From positions 43,030-107,029 of the forward strand of contig CANTFL010001075.1 in NCBI GenBank assembly GCA_947650285.1: 64,000 nucleotides of DNA, read 5' to 3'. The position numbers and the translations under genes are program-made. This DNA is from Hyaloperonospora brassicae. Lineage: Eukaryota; Oomycota; Peronosporomycetes; Peronosporales; Peronosporaceae. This document shows positions 38,307 through 47,767 of this stretch, piece by piece; position 1 is the first letter of the stretch, and every line of letters starts with the position of its first letter. The notes under the pieces are model-generated. The model made no database searches and had not been told where the DNA came from. It worked only from the letters and a program-made list of their open reading frames with translations.

Positions 38307-41300
38307 TTAGCTCACATTACCGCGACCATAGGTGCCTTCAGGACACTTGTACTCGTCAGGGAGCAGGGAGCGCTGCAGCGAGTTGAAAGCGTACTGACGC
38401 TTGCCAGTGTTTTTGAGCGCGTTCTCCAGTCGAACGCCATTGCTGCGCATCGTTGACACTGTGCGTACCACATACTCCTCGGGCAAGCCATGGTTCTCAC
38501 TCAGTAGCCGCACCTGCTCGAGCGTCACCGACATGCTCGTGCGATCCTTGGCGCTTTTGCAGGACGTCGCGCGCCCTGCGCCGAGTAGGCGACACAAATT
38601 AGAGCTCTCCTGAACGATCTTCGGATGCTTCGATTTGACTACTTGCCGCTTGCTAGCTGTGGTAATACGCTCCTCCAGCGAGTTCAACAGAGGCTCGATT
38701 GTCGACATGGGCGTCAGCATGGCGTCCGGCTGCATTTCGTGCACACAGCAGTCAGCATACATGATAAACGAGAGCATCATGAAAGCGCCGATCAGCACGT
38801 ACCATTTTAGCAGCAAACAGCTTGTATCTCTCGACGTAGCGGGTCAGCACGAAAAAGCTCTTGCGATTGATGACATCCTGCAGCGTCGTCTTCTTGCTGC
38901 TGGCGTTATTTGCCAGCGTCTGCATTTCGTTGATACCCTGCGTAAAGACGACCGGCGTGACAGGAATCGGGCCGCCTGATCGAATGGTAGATGGAATGGA
39001 AGCTCGCACGTCGTTTGAGCAACGCACACCGATTACAACGGTAAACGTGCCCGCGGTAGACCCCTTATTCAATCGAACGGACACTACGCTTGGAAGCGTG
39101 GTGTTTGTCATGTGGAGATTCAGCAGTGTTGACGGGAGGTGCGATGGAGGCAGCGTATCGAGGACAAACGCAACGTGCTTGAGTGCGTCCACGGCTGCTG
39201 AGAGGTCCTCTAGCATTCCGATCTCCTTGCCCTGTGTAGACAGCAATGACTCGACCTGGAAGAGGAAGCCAACGCCATCGATTATATGCAGAAACGAGCG
39301 GTCCACTAGGTGCTGCAACGAATACTCCAGCTGACGGCAGAAGGACGTAACCAGCGTGGTCAATGCTTGCGAAAAGCACATATCGAACCGGGTCGTGAGA
39401 TGCCATCGCGTCTCGTCGGCAGAACGTGTATCAGCACCGCTCCAGTCCACCACATTGGCGCCACCGCTGAACGAGACGTTACTCTGCACGCGGGACAGCG
39501 ACCGTTTCTGCAACATCGAGCGCAAACTTAAAATGCTTCCGCCATGACGGAACTTGAAGCAGTGCGCAGCAAATGCGCCTACTGTTATAGTTGGGTACAC
39601 CCTTACGCTTGTCGACGTCCTCCTTGATCGCTGAGAGCGCAGGTCAGCACTCGGGCCGACCCACATTTCCTGCACGTGCAGATTGATGGGCAGGAACCGC
39701 AGGACCAAACTCTTTTTCTCAGTACTGGCCTTGAAATTGAGCCCCTTTTCTGCACGTTCGACGCACACTTGGTGGCACTCGCGCAATGCCTCGACGTACA
39801 TCTTGCGTTGCTGCACACGGTGATTCAGCCACGTTTGGACCAGCGTCCGGTCATTCTCACCCTGAATCTGCTCGATCAAGTTATCGTACAAATTGCCAAC
39901 AAGTCCACTCTTCACTCGCGCCTCATAGTCTGCAGCTTCAGCTACTGCGCGCGCATGATCATCAGCCCGCTCGGAGACGAGCAGCTCCAGGTACTGTCGA
40001 GGTACTTCGTTTGTAAGAGGACTTTCAAGCATGTCTTCGATCACCATTTCGTCGCCTTCAGCAAACTGAAAGCTCTTGGTGATGTAGAATCCAGAGTTCT
40101 CCTTCAATTGGCGCGGCGACGAAGTCATCGACTTGACTCGCAAACAAGGTATCGATGAACCCGCATCTGCGGTAGCAACCCCAGTGGCAGCTGCTGAATT
40201 TGGTGACGCTGTGCCAGTTCCATCCTGCAAAACAGTTGGACCAGACGAAACAGAGCGGTGCGAAACCTGTCGTGCTACCAAATTCACCTCGTCTGCCGCA
40301 AGAACGTCGTCACGCGTACACAAGAACTCACAAAAGACCTTGGGTCGTGAGGGTGGTGCCATACCCATTCCAGACACACGAGCGATCCTGGCACGTTCGT
40401 CCAGCTGTAGGGAAGATGCACGCGTCACTTGGAGAGACTCGGACAAGTCACCGCTCGACGACTGCAACGAAGTCTGCTCCGGGATCTCGTATACGACAAA
40501 GCGAAGAAGTGAATTGACGTGCATCGCAGGTATCTGAAGTATCGACAGGAAAGTGGCGGTTTGGGTCACTGCGCCGCTACCCTCAACTTTGCCAGTCACT
40601 AGTGTCGGCAAAACCGTCTCGGTAAAGCTCACGCGAGACCACTTCGCTAGTGGAATAGCAACGCAAGAAGCCGTGCATAAGGCCCCAGAACTAAGCATCG
40701 ATTGCGAGTAGCCACGGCGGCTGAAGATTCCTTCTTGATGTATCCCGCTCTCAATAAAAGAGCTGATTGACGAACGACGATAACTCATTACTGGAAGATC
40801 CTCGTGGTACTCGTCCTCACCAACGTCATTTCCACCAGCTTCTGGTGTAGTGTTTTCGGCAACATATAGCTCCACGAAGCACGCCTGCGTAAGAGGAATG
40901 GGCGACAACAGCTGGACTGCTAGCGCCAGCACATTCTGCGCACCATCCACTATCTCCTGGCTAGTCGGGTTATACTCAGTGTCAGGAAAATGCAAAATGC
41001 CTGCCCAACCGTCGCTTAGCCCTGTATCATTCGCTGATATGCCAAGCTTGCCACTCTCGGCCTTGTCAGAAATACTTGACACCGCATGATGCAGCACCTC
41101 CGAGTCTTTGGCATGCATCGATGGGTTCCAATTCATCCCACGTAGTCGTGGGTTCCATTGCAAAATCAGAAAGCCAACTGGAGGTACCAGGGTTGGAAGC
41201 CAAATGGAGAAAATGTACCAAACAACAGAGTCAATACTCCGATTGTTCCAGTGCAAAATGAAGTTCATGATAGAGGATGTTCCGAGCACGAGCGCAATCG

Positions 41301-44300
41301 ATAGTATCACCACCGAATATGTAATCAACGACTTCTTCATCACTTTCACCACGTGGTCGTCGAAAATATCGCCGGACTCATCAATCAGCCGCACGCCTCG
41401 TTGGATCACGAACGTGCCGAGCACGAGCAACGCCACGGAGGCGAGAAAGATCAACAGTATGCCGCTCTGATGGAGAGGGAAAAACCAGCCGGAGTAGCTC
41501 ACATCCTTGCATACACTATCCACCGCATATTGCCACTGTCTAGGTTGTAGATCGGGGCAGTAATCGTTCGAGCACAGTCGCATCGTATAAACGGGGTTCT
41601 TCAGATAGTCGTCGTAGGCGCACTTGTAGAAATCTGTAAGACTTATGACACCGAAAAGTTGGATACCGTAGAACACCACATTCATGATCACGTAGATGGT
41701 AAACATTAACAAGCGTCCAGATGGTCCCACGTCGTGGAACAGCACCGTGCCCCAATGAAAGCACACTGAAGTCATCATCGTCCACGTAAAGCAGATAGAT
41801 ATCGCGTACAGTAAGTAGTAAACTGCGGTTCCTCTCGCTGATGACGCATTAGTCGCTACACGAATCCAAATTGCGTTGCCGACGATACAAAGGACAAAAA
41901 TCATCATCACAGACAAAGATGTCATGTCGTTGTAAAACGTCAATTTCGAAAATGAGATGCCATTCTGCCAGTAGCATAGGAAGCATCGAGTTAGTCATCA
42001 GAATCGCATGGAGAAGCGGCAGGCAGAAGATGTTACCATTCGTGTGATCAGCACAGCACCAGCCAGAGCAACAGCATAAAATGTGATTGACATCACGCTG
42101 TACACACTCAGATTGTACTTCGAGTCTATGTCAACACATTCAAACACGAGTAAGCGCATACGTCTTCGTACAAATGGTCGAACGAGTCATATACGTACTT
42201 GTTTTCGCGTGCACCAATACTTGAGCACAGTCAGTGCCCAACACACCGCCGTCATCCGTCAAGACGACTTCGCCGAGAGGAGGCATACTGAACCCGCTTG
42301 CATTAGCACTCCTCTGGTCCTCATCGCCAGCCCAGGCAACATGGGTCACTTGAATCTGGAACGTGAACATACTCCTTATCTCCCAAGAATCGTTCGTTTT
42401 AACGCCAGAAGGAAGGAGGTTTGTCACGCAGAAGTAGGTAGAATTGTCGCTCTGGAGGCTCAAACTTGTTTTGCCTGGATTAGCGTACAGATTGATGAAC
42501 GGGTTTCCGCCTTTGACATATGAGACCGTCGAAGATGAGTCGAAAAACACAGTAGAAGCGGGCTCACGCCCTTTGCTGGCGCAGTGCGGGGAACGCAAAT
42601 TTACGCATACTTTCGGGTTATTCGACTCGGGGCCAACGATAGTGGACGTCGAAAACGACAACATCATTATCTCCATGTCCTCTTCCATCCACAACAGCGA
42701 CGAATCCAGCCGGCCTTCCTGGACAGAAGGCAACGCCATCGTAGCAAGTGTTAGCGCGCCTAAACCCGGAGGCGAAGCGGTTGAGTCAGCAGCGGCCACC
42801 ATCAATTTACGCTCCCGGCGGGAAGCAGCAGCAGACATAAGGGCCCCAGATGACGTCTCATATGATAGTGACACGCTTACACCCGCTGAGCCACCAAACG
42901 CGCCGGAACATGCACCTGTGATAATACTTTCCGAAAGCACAAACGACATAGGGCCTCCAGAGCTCAATGTCATCAAATCCGTTCGGCCTTCGAGTAGACC
43001 CATCACATCGATAAAGCCGTACCGGTGAGTATCGCTGTCACAGTTCGCATCTTTTGTTACATCGAAGCAGCTATACGCGCGCACGGTGGAAACACTGTCA
43101 CTGTTGCCGTTTCGTAGCGTGACTTTTACCGCAGTGCTCTCCCATGATACGAATCGCCAGCCACTAGGGAGCGAGATAGTGATCCACCAGTTGCTTTTGC
43201 GGGTCATCGGATCTTCCTCGCCCAAGTTGAAAAATGCTCCAATGATGTCAGCCGCCAAGAGCGTAAATGTCGCTTCTGCAACACTGTGAGGAGTGACTGA
43301 CGATGTCGACACCTTGTAAGAATCCGTTGATACACATGTCTTGTATCCTGGTGAACACGAGCCACCGAAAAGTCTGCGTTCGCACATGGGCCTGCTAGAG
43401 TCTCCAGGGTACATGTTCTGACACTCGGATGCCTTACACCGACAGTACGTCGGTGTGTAAGGCACGTGCCGACTGCTTTCGTTTTGCTGCAAAAACAAAA
43501 AGAGAAGCAGGTCAATGAGCTCAAGTTAGGCAAGATATTACCATACGCCAGATCAAGATCAGTGACGCAACTAACCCAGATTTTGCTCCCGATCTCTGAT
43601 GCACTCGAAGGAACGCCGTGCTCAGCGAGAGATAACACCTTGACGACTTCGTTTCGACCACTTTTCAATCCCGACGTTGTTGAGTTGACTGCGAGCGATG
43701 CCTCGTCTGGCACTGACACATCGTCGTCAAGAACTATCAAGGGTTCATCTGCTGTAGGCGCGACCATTTCCGTTTTGGCAGCAACGAACTTAGTCGCGCA
43801 TGGTGCAGTCGCTGGAACATCGCTGATTGGAGGTGCTTTAGCGCAACCAACTGATGCAGCTTTCATCGTAGATGCGCTATCGTCGCTGAAGCCGATAGCA
43901 ACCCGAACCCTACTTGATCCCCCGAGCTCGTCCACATTCAGAGGGCTCGCAGTAACCTGAGCAACTGTATCGATACCGGAAGAGTCGGTGGGGCTCAGTG
44001 AGCTAACAGGGAGGTCAGCTACTTCAGAACCAACTGGAGCACGAACGTCCACAGAGCTGGCAACGCTAAAGCTATCCGGAGATGCTACAGGAATATCAGC
44101 ATCCGGTTGTTCTGATGCAACGTGGGTAGACTCGAGCTCAACACATGCATCCACATCTTCCTCTTCGGTCTCGTCACGACTCCCGTGAAAACCAACAGCA
44201 ATGTCCGAGTCACCAAAACTCGCAGTAGCACGAATGCCGTCAGCATTTGCCGTCACATCCAGGTCAGCGGACCCGAGTGAGACGTCCAACCCGTGCGACT

Positions 44301-45036
44301 CTGTCAAGGTTTCCATACTTTTCCAATCCACAGATGCCCCGTCATTTCCAGCACCCATCAAGGCGCCAAGCTCCATTAAGTCCAATACTGTCGATTCGAC
44401 TGTGTCTTCGGATGTAGCTAAAATACCGCCTGCAGAGTCCGCCACGCGATCGATGTCTCCAGCACCAACTGTGACGCCAGTCCCTGCAGTAGTCATGTCC
44501 AGTCCAGCTCTGTCGATCTTCGAGTCACGCATCACATTCGTGTCTTTTGCCACGCGAGAACCTGCACCTCTGTCCCCAAAAGGACCACCGTCGTTTGAGT
44601 GCCTAATCTCCACCTTCTCCGCGTCCTCTGCACTCGGCGAGCGGTCCGGAACCGTCTCTTTCTCCAGCACCTTTTTGTACGTACCATGACGCTGTTTTTT
44701 ATCCTGAGCACTGTCTTCTGCATCTCTTTCCATCGCAAACATCCGGTACAGCACCTCCTCTTCTTGCTTTATCAAGGCCGCACTTGCAGGCACTGCGTCT
44801 CCTCTCTCTACCACACATCACAGCGACAGACGTCACACATGAGGCAGAAAGAAAGTCAATACACCGATCGAAATGACTCGTCCAGTGACACGGCGCGCAC
44901 CTTCTTTGGCTACGGACACGAGTAGCAGTCCCGACGCGCATAGGAGCAGTAGACACAGCGCTGCTGCGCCCACAGACGTCCCGCGACGTTGCACGAGTTG
45001 ACGCTAAATGGAGCAGATATACATTAGAGACACACC

Positions 45037-45080
<44 letters not shown>

Positions 45081-45226
45081 CGACGTACCCGCATAAAGTG
45101 CCGTCCAGCAGTGCGCACTGCTGTTGTTGTCTGAGTCGATTGGGAGGAATCGAGGGGTAGGTCAACGACGATGTGACGAGAGGCTCGTGCATAGGTTAAT
45201 TTGGGACGACCAAAAACGACAGACAT
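38307..45226 (-). CDS. GPCR-INPP4 fusion: seven-transmembrane protein with inositol polyphosphate 4-phosphatase domain
   Basis: Seven exons: 45089-45226, 44901-45003, 43576-44807, 42199-43486, 42037-42125, 38803-41964, 38307-38729. Phases fit and total 6,435 bp, 2,144 residues. Donors are GTACGT, GTGCGC, GTTAGT, GTACGT, GTAACA and GTACGT. Layout: cytosolic start; signal anchor near residue 60-80 (GAAALCLLLLCASGLLLVSV); Ser/Thr/acidic then Cys-containing ectodomain to about 920; seven hydrophobic segments to about 1240; a long cytosolic part. The C-terminus matches INPP4A/B: LPINLHVQEMWVG, FTQGINEMQTLANN, and the CX5R active site CKSAKDRT near residue 2061, then VTLEQVRLL and PEGTYG. INPP4 removes the 4-phosphate of PI(3,4)P2. 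Receptor-effector fusions of this kind are known in oomycetes as GPCR-bigrams. One anchor plus seven segments places the phosphatase in the cytosol, which supports the model. Confidence 0.85.
45039..45074. repeat. (GA)n microsatellite in intron 1 of the receptor-phosphatase gene
   Basis: About 36 bp of AG dinucleotide repeat inside the 85-bp first intron (45004-45088). On the transcribed strand it is a (CT)n tract upstream of the ATTTAG acceptor, so it may serve as the polypyrimidine tract. Confidence 0.9.
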
Positions 45227-46043
45227 TGGCTGTAGGGCTCATCGCCACTAGCACTACCACCAGCAGCAATAGCCACAGAAAACATACCGACACAAAGGTA
45301 CTCTTCAACTGATTGAAAGCTGTCAAAGCCGAGCGCCTTTCGAGTGCAGTTGGCAGACACAATCGATCACTTAGCCCTGTGTGCTTTCCCTGTGCGTGCA
45401 AAGCATTTGCTTATGCAGCCTATAGACTCCTAGCTGATCATTGCCAGGAGGCGTCGACACTTGTGCCTGCGACAGCTACTCGTTCGACCGCTGCGACTTG
45501 CGAGCAACAAACTGCATGCAGTTCATAACTGCTGGTCGCTCACGACGCTGCCACACATGATAGCGTGCTACTGGACGCACGCAACATATTGTATGGCTCA
45601 GGAACAGCCATCGATGTATGTTGAGGCCGATGCTAGCAATAGCGATATCCAGCCAGTTGCAACAGTCATTGAAGCGCATCGAAGGGACCGACGAGAAGAG
45701 CCCTTTTTTCCTCCCGATTGACCAAACGGCAGCTTTTCTTCGCACCCAACCAGTGCGCTGCCTATCGCTCCTGCACCTCGGAGCGATCGGATCGAGCAAT
45801 AGACGACAACACTATCGTGAACCTGAGCTAACAACGAAGCCCTGTCGTCTCGTAATTAGCTGACAGGCGATACGCGTCGGTCCGTCTGTAGAACACCAAG
45901 CGCACGTTGCAAGAACGGTGCTAGAAAAAAGCGCACGTTGCAAGAACGGTGCTAGAAAAAGCGCATGTTTAATTTCAGGTGCACCACACAAGTCACTTTG
46001 TCCACTCGATTCAAAAGAGAGCTATCAATCACCACGTGCAGCG
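45227..46043. promoter_or_regulatory. Divergent upstream region of receptor-phosphatase and UTP7 genes
   Basis: 817 bp between outward-facing start codons. It carries the 31-bp tandem duplication about 85 bp before the UTP7 ATG. No other element recognised. Confidence 0.5.
45900..45960. repeat. Perfect 31-bp tandem duplication upstream of the UTP7 gene
   Basis: The 30-bp unit starting GCGCACGTTGCAAG and ending GGTGCTAGAAAAA occurs at 45900-45929 and 45931-45960 without mismatch. A partial third start (GCGCATG) follows. It includes CACG and TTGCAA cores. Confidence 0.95.
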
Positions 46044-47767
46044 ATGGCGGCGATCGACGAGGAGGACATTGAGCAGATCGTGCGCGAGGCGCCCACGCGC
46101 TTAGGGCAGAAGGAGAGGCGCGGCAAGCCCAAGCAGGAGAAGGTCAAGCACGTGGCCAAGTACACGCGCGGTGGGGCCATCTCGCAGCGTCGCATCCGCA
46201 ACATCCGCGACAAGAAGCTCAAGGGCTCGTTGCAACGCGCGTATGAGCAGCACCAGCTCGCCGCCGAGTCAGCGGCCAAGTCGGAGATCTTACTGCCTGA
46301 CCAGGCCGGGTACCTGGAAGCCGAAGGACTCGAGAAGACGTACAAGTTCACGCAGAAGCAGCTCGCCGACAACGTGGACCTGAATACCGCCCGCAAGATC
46401 TTTAGCTTGGACTTGCCCGACTACGGATCGTACCGTGTCAAGTACACGCGCAATGGACGGAACATGCTGCTTGGGAGTCAGAAAGGCCACTTGGCGCAGA
46501 TGGACGCGTTGCGCATGAAACTCACGTGTGAATTCCAGGCCAACGACTTGGTGCGCGACATTAGTTTCTTGCACAACGACTCGCTGTTTGCTGCAGCGCA
46601 GAAAAAGCACGTGTTCATTTACGACAACACGGGTGCTGAGGCACATTGCATCCGCACGATCCCAGAGCCTCGACGGATGGAGTTTCTGCCGTACCACTTT
46701 CTGCTCTCGACCGTGAGTGGCAATGGACTGCTGAGCTACCACGACGTGACTGAAGGGAAACAGGTATCGACGCACCGAACAAAGCAGGGACTATGTGACA
46801 CGATGGCGTTGAACCCGTGGAACGCTGTTGTAAACCTCGGACATGCAAGCGGGATTGTGACATTGTGGACACCAAACATGTCGGATGCTGTCGTCAAGAT
46901 GCAGTGCCATCAGGGACCGAGTACGTTGTTTGTCATTGTCGCTGGGGTTTTTCATGAGTGTACTTGTGGCTTACAGTTATTCGACTGGTTGTGGTTTGAT
47001 CAGTTCGCTCCATGAGCATTGACGGCAGTGGAAAGTATCTCGTCACCGCTGGTGCGGACAGGAAAGTGAAGGTGTTTGACCTGCGCAAGTACCAAGAGTT
47101 GAACAGCTACTACCTAACAGCGGCAGCTAACACAATGAGCGTGAGTCAGCGTGGACTCGTAGCAGTAGGCTTTGGCCCGAACGTACACGTGCTCAAGAAC
47201 GCCTTCACATCGGGCTCTCCTATCCGGCCATACATGACGTACCAGATTCCAGGCTCAATGGTCAGCTCGATCGCATTCCGTCCGTTTGAAGATGTGCTGG
47301 CTGTTGGCCATGCCACGGGCTTCAACTCGGTGGTGATTCCTGGCGCAGGTGAGCCGAACTTCGATACGTACGAGGCGAACCCGTACGAGAACCACAAACA
47401 GCGTGACGAATCCGAGGTGCGCTCACTGCTGGAGAAGATCCGTCCAGAGATGATCACATTGGATCCGAATGCCATTGGCCGTGTGGACATGGACCCAGCT
47501 GAGGAGCAGGAAAACAAGATTTATCAGATGAAGCGTGCCAACGAAAGTGGCAGTGTCAAGAAACCAAAGAAGAAGATGCGCGGTAAAAACCGTCCGTCGC
47601 GGCGGTTGCGCAAGAAGCAGCAAAATGTCGTCGACGCTCAGAAACAGCAGTGCCGCGAGCAATTGGCGAGCAAGCAGAAACGCGCATATCGACAGGAGCA
47701 GCAGCGCGAGTGGGATGGAAAAGCTGAGAGCGCGCCTACAGCGCTTAATCGATTCTTCAAGAAATAG
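46044..47767 (+). CDS. UTP7/WDR46, U3 snoRNP small-subunit processome WD-repeat protein
   Basis: Two exons, 46044-46920 and 47004-47767, with an 83-bp intron (GTACGT...GATCAG), giving 546 residues. The N-terminal basic region has KYTRGGAISQRRIRNIRDKK, matching the UTP7 lead-in. The WD propeller follows: YGSYRVKYTRNGRNMLLGSQ, VRDISFLHNDSLFAAAQKK, MALNPWNAVVNLGHASGIVT, SGKYLVTAGADRKVKVFDLR. The BING4-type C-terminal domain (FRPFEDVLAVGHATGFNSVV, PGAGEPNFDTYEANPYE) precedes a Lys/Arg-rich tail (KKPKKKMRGKNRPSRRLRKK) fit for nucleolar RNA. UTP7 works in early pre-18S rRNA processing. The ATG at 46044 begins the conserved protein; the open frame further upstream is not conserved-looking. Confidence 0.92.

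Follow-up and report, generated by a model that had tools for sequence, protein, structure and literature searches.

A GPCR-INPP gene of Hyaloperonospora brassicae with a predicted cysteine-rich ectodomain ahead of its seven-transmembrane and INPP4-type parts

The question raised by a minus-strand locus in a 64,000-nucleotide stretch of the oomycete Hyaloperonospora brassicae (assembly GCA_947650285.1, contig CANTFL010001075.1, forward-strand positions 43,030 to 107,029; hereafter the window, in which all positions are counted) is whether one gene encodes both a receptor-like seven-transmembrane (7TM) protein and an intact INPP4-type phosphoinositide phosphatase, and what the large part ahead of the 7TM segments might be. 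A sequence-only reading had proposed such a fusion and placed it among the GPCR-bigrams, in which domains resembling G-protein-coupled receptors (GPCRs) are joined to effectors; the exact class, GPCR-INPP (INPP, inositol polyphosphate phosphatase), was published in 2018 (van den Hoogen and Govers 2018, PMC5784254; PMC6033456; these sources and PMC9694693 are cited from the portions of text available), and the window gene belongs to it. The class was defined in PMC5784254, with seven members in Phytophthora infestans and one to nine in other oomycetes; INPP4 homologues were reported in all oomycetes examined (PMC9694693). Within the available text of the open-licence literature the term GPCR-INPP was found in PMC5784254 and PMC6033456 only, and "INPP" is absent from the main text of a Phytophthora agathidicida genome paper.

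Gene structure, domain order and orthologues

Judged by its sequence, the gene is real and intact. Its seven minus-strand exons (45226-45089, 45003-44901, 44792-43576, 43486-42199, 42125-42037, 41964-38803 and 38729-38307) join in phase as first proposed, with GT..AG at six of six introns, consistent phases and an open frame of 2139 codons in the spliced model; exon 6 runs for 1054 codons without a stop, which has a chance of about 1e-22 assuming equal codon use. The deposited H. brassicae protein, P0001, matches the spliced model at 99.8% from residue 45 to the end; from there on the two are identical but for five extra residues that P0001 carries at the exon 2/3 join. As P0001 begins at Met45, the start of the earlier model has to be revised along with this join. 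The features of the fusion, in first-model numbering, are as follows:

38307..45226, minus strand: entire coding sequence; seven exons giving 2139 codons in the first model and 2100 in the deposited protein
42043..42099, minus strand: transmembrane segment TM1; residues 925-943, exon 5, from the hydropathy scan
41161..41919, minus strand: TM2-TM7; residues 961-1213, exon 6
40108..40941, minus strand: C2-like domain; residues 1287-1564
38313..40095, minus strand: INPP4-type phosphatase domain; residues 1569-2138, exons 6 and 7
38538..38561, minus strand: active-site motif CKSAKDRT; residues 2056-2063

The seven hydrophobic segments described earlier are present at residues 925-1213 in a hydropathy scan of the spliced model, and a C-terminal inositol polyphosphate phosphatase domain lies in the same chain. 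INPP4 is a soluble protein in which a C2 domain stands ahead of the catalytic domain, and the C2-like domain at residues 1287-1564 occupies that position here. The phosphatase domain had likewise been read correctly: CKSAKDR(T) is intact at residues 2056-2063, and the conserved blocks that flank it match those of animal INPP4.

A search with residues 490-2139 returned 69 proteins; after P0001, the next 29 are close relatives with 39-88% identity, some of them partial, from Phytophthora, Nothophytophthora, Peronospora, Peronosclerospora, Bremia, Plasmopara, Pythium, Globisporangium and Albugo and also from H. arabidopsidis. Among these relatives is P0005, whose deposited name is Phytophthora agathidicida GPCR-INPP 3. 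Apart from a few unnamed rows and a single fungal one, the other 39 consist of further INPP proteins from oomycetes and of insect proteins of INPP4A type. Fifteen of the 69 proteins were chosen for alignment; their models are not uniform: TM1 is missing from P0020 (Nothophytophthora), and extra residues occur where exon 4 meets exon 5 in P0005 and P0016 and where exon 6 meets exon 7 in P0015.

These alignments bear on the possibility of an annotation chimera, in which an ectodomain/7TM gene would lie beside a separate INPP4 gene. Models of this locus do go astray elsewhere, as two Peronospora models are fused to a CS-domain neighbour and the H. arabidopsidis gene is divided between two models (P0077 and P0024), and the additional residues of P0005 and P0016 fall at the exon 4/5 join. 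Yet TM2-TM7 share a single open exon of 1054 codons with the C2-like domain and the greater part of the phosphatase, and the 7TM-phosphatase chain is aligned in all 15 chosen orthologue models (P0020 without TM1). Because the exon is uninterrupted and the orthologue models have the same chain, a gene boundary between the two parts is very unlikely, and the two-gene alternative is hardly credible; the 7TM-INPP4 fusion in one chain holds as first proposed.

Two observations concern the orthologue models themselves. The H. arabidopsidis protein P0077 (593 amino acids), named "RxLR effector candidate", matches receptor residues 66-650 at 52%, and P0024 matches residues 966-2137 at 88%; apparently they are one receptor gene split into two models, and therefore the effector label looks wrong. 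A plain scan found no RxLR motif in the first 150 residues of P0077. The Albugo laibachii protein P0030 continues for several hundred residues beyond the phosphatase, with a Band_7_C match, and its tail is probably another fused neighbour gene.

Active site and likely substrate

The fold of the phosphatase domain is predicted, and its nearest solved structures are P-Rex1 and P-Rex2. The INPP4-like (IP4P) domain of P-Rex is thought to act as a scaffold, and a similar role might be imagined here, with a catalytically silent domain and signalling via G proteins. An inactive catalytic domain is among the possible modes that the authors of the class list (PMC6033456). CKSAKDR is, however, whole in all four genes of this genome that bear a 7TM, the window gene included, whereas P-Rex2 reads CSSGVHR and P-Rex1 CGTGMQR; a silent scaffold appears distinctly improbable, and a catalytically active domain is the preferred reading.

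The main substrate of INPP4 is phosphatidylinositol 3,4-bisphosphate, PI(3,4)P2. The authors of the class assumed phosphatidylinositol bisphosphate (PIP2) as the GPCR-INPP substrate, in a cycle with the GPCR-PIPKs, with direct activation yet to be tested (PMC5784254); following this cycle, the enzyme would act on PI(4,5)P2 as the reverse partner of the GPCR-PIPKs. The motif and flanking blocks are instead those of animal INPP4, which removes the 4-phosphate of PI(3,4)P2 among other substrates (PMC9694693), and this makes PI(4,5)P2 an unlikely choice. Since the domain is of INPP4 type, family knowledge argues for PI(3,4)P2 over PI(4,5)P2; the lipid branch is thereby suggested to differ from the PIP2 cycle proposed earlier.

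Ectodomain, membrane topology and paralogues

The part ahead of the 7TM segments had been read as a signal anchor, with 56 cytosolic residues ahead of it, followed by a single ectodomain of about 840 residues; neither view fits the orthologues well, and the region divides as follows:

44902..45094, minus strand: probable signal peptide; residues 45-80, interrupted by intron 45088-45004, Met45 being the deposited start
43576..44901, minus strand: variable low-complexity linker; residues 81-486, A+S+V+D+G making up 54% of 406 residues
43325..43462, minus strand: six-cysteine module; residues 495-540, its six Cys present in every aligned row but that of Albugo (14 of 15)
42200..43324, minus strand: conserved ectodomain core; residues 541-915, mostly beta in the model, with six Cys common to all 15 rows
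41461..41655, minus strand: TM4-TM5 loop; residues 1049-1113, four Cys in 14 of 15 rows, five in one

A hydrophobic run after a basic stretch at the N-terminus has the look of a cleaved signal peptide. The aligned orthologue models that keep their N-terminus start, like P0001, at or near residue 45 with a hydrophobic run, mostly preceded by a basic stretch; P0005, P0017, P0020 and P0028 lack such an N-terminus, and that of the Albugo model is unaligned. Residues 45-80 are thus a probable signal peptide, and a separate membrane anchor is unlikely because the orthologue models start near residue 45 with signal-peptide-like sequence. Residues 81-486, compared with 14 aligned orthologue models, have 11-35% identity and a length of 9-537 residues (some models being truncated), and by this measure contain no conserved domain.

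Exon 4 (residues 487-915) encodes the conserved ectodomain, whose core has an identity of 43-72% in 13 of 14 orthologue rows and 29% in Albugo. Its structure model, of modest confidence and with a top structural match no better than background, is read as two mostly beta lobes in the core, probably a beta-sandwich; it may hold an undescribed ligand-binding fold, as first suggested. Compared with its own genome at E up to 1, exon 4 matched only itself. A search with the ectodomain region returned 24 proteins, read as all belonging to its own orthologue group, some partial, and a profile search at E up to 0.1 returned eight shorter proteins (about 8000 candidates scored in each). Five of these eight were examined, and none is a stand-alone secreted relative of the ectodomain: three stop at or just beyond the end of exon 4, a fourth, P0071, is a partial gene model that ends there, and the fifth, P0077, is the split N-terminal half described above. 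Pfam scans of five window frames spanning the gene gave no family at E up to 1, and no GAIN/GPS family was found at that threshold in these frames or in P0003 and P0027; in five relatives Pfam matched nothing apart from the Band_7_C tail of the Albugo protein and, in one weak row, LacI, and NCBIfam gave a single weak row in four relatives.

An N-out/C-in topology is supported only indirectly: the spans are odd in number and follow an ectodomain that is probably secreted, the TM4-TM5 loop, read as extracellular loop 2, contains cysteines, and some orthologue rows have NxS/T sites in outer loops, though the Albugo row has them in two inner loops. The hydropathy scan has four further peaks, at residues 57 (the signal peptide), 554, 1290 and 1367. 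The last three were rejected as membrane spans: in the structure model of exon 4, 554 falls on a strand and a helix; 1290 corresponds to a strand of the C2-like part, and 1367 lies inside a low-confidence stretch.

The last exon, searched against its own genome at E up to 1, matched eight places, the last of which (E 0.9) was set aside as a chance match; at least seven INPP4 loci, including the window gene, were counted, and the six others were examined over 7-8 kb each. CKSAKDRT and a 7TM occur together in three of these six: L011 (= P0049) and L012 (= P0040), which also have an ectodomain, and L013, where the 7TM is close to the start; in L014, L015 and L016 no 7TM is visible in the long open frames (upstream exons lying outside the models), and the motif is CKSGKDRT instead of CKSAKDRT. 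The 7TM profile of the window gene's group is shared with two paralogue groups (hhalign 99.8 and 99.9%). The window ectodomain, by contrast, has no profile relation to the L011-type and L012-type ectodomains (hhalign 0.2 and 0.1%), in a comparison of shallow profiles (16 rows, one dropped, versus 9 and 5 rows; Neff 2.4) that distant kinship could escape; the latter two may be distantly related to each other (hhalign 24%, E 8.5e-4, in a run with badly cut rows). In a tree of the phosphatase domain (19 rows) the window gene clusters with three orthologues (100/99); deeper forks are weak (82-83%), two of them being drawn open, and the branches of the genes that lack a 7TM are long, so that the tree does not decide whether all members with a 7TM arose once.

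We tentatively suggest, at somewhat less than even confidence, that GPCR-INPPs are modular: one conserved 7TM-INPP4 chassis would have gained ectodomains with cysteines independently, at least twice and perhaps three times (one member having none); each of these would have a fold specific to its lineage and a ligand of its own, and PI(3,4)P2 would be controlled directly from the cell surface. No description was found of this ectodomain, of its apparent confinement to one orthologue group or of differing ectodomains on a shared chassis, and the word "ectodomain" occurs in neither main text, as available, of PMC5784254 and PMC6033456; the large outer part, differing between sister genes, looks undescribed.

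Locus context, proposed mechanism and known systems

Downstream lies a CS-domain gene (36472-35705, minus strand), one piece of which has four stop codons in the frame translated, perhaps reflecting an intron. In the Peronospora models P0010 and P0011 the phosphatase continues into a CS-domain tail; two pieces of this tail match 36472-35705 (49-63%), and the models were most likely fused in annotation. The divergent neighbour (45864-47767, plus strand) has WD40-type matches and a BING4CT domain (PF08149, E 1.7e-37), and its two overlapping open frames suggest an intron. Intron 1 contains, at about 45038-45074, a GA dinucleotide repeat run on the plus strand (CT on the coding strand).

Very probably the gene product is a GPCR-INPP that would act as an oomycete plasma-membrane (or endomembrane) receptor-phosphatase in the following way. 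The signal peptide would route the chain to the endoplasmic reticulum; the cysteine-rich, probably beta-sandwich ectodomain would lie outside on its flexible linker and sense a ligand, surface or partner; the 7TM bundle would relay the signal to, and so gate, a cytosolic C2 and INPP4 module; and this module would lower a 4-phosphorylated phosphoinositide at the receptor, most likely by converting PI(3,4)P2 to phosphatidylinositol 3-phosphate. Coupling within one chain may bypass G proteins, as the sequence-only reading had it. PMC6033456 describes a topology with the enzyme inside the cell and leaves the ligands and modes of action of the class open. The conserved, single-exon, cysteine-rich ectodomain of about 430 residues is a pointer to where a ligand may bind, and it can be made alone.

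Like the window gene, adhesion GPCRs have a large ectodomain ahead of the 7TM; the GPS/GAIN elements of adhesion GPCRs had no Pfam match in the pieces and proteins scanned (absence from a library being no proof), and adhesion GPCRs are not known to carry a C-terminal enzyme. The IP4P domain of P-Rex1 and P-Rex2 differs in its altered active-site letters, and P-Rex has exchange-factor modules in place of the 7TM. Animal INPP4A and INPP4B share CKSAKDRT, the flanking blocks and the C-terminal position of the catalytic domain, but have neither 7TM nor ectodomain, the insect protein showing one weak hydrophobic peak. The GPCR-PIPKs are likewise oomycete 7TM proteins joined to a phosphoinositide enzyme, but this is a kinase, not a phosphatase, and no comparable ectodomain is described in the available text (PMC5784254). 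Whereas the large ectodomain, the C2-like domain and the INPP type are undescribed in the main texts, as available, of PMC5784254 and PMC6033456, the window gene shares with the GPCR-INPP class a single chain in which the 7TM is joined to an inositol polyphosphate phosphatase at the C-terminus, and its orthologue P0005 bears the class name.
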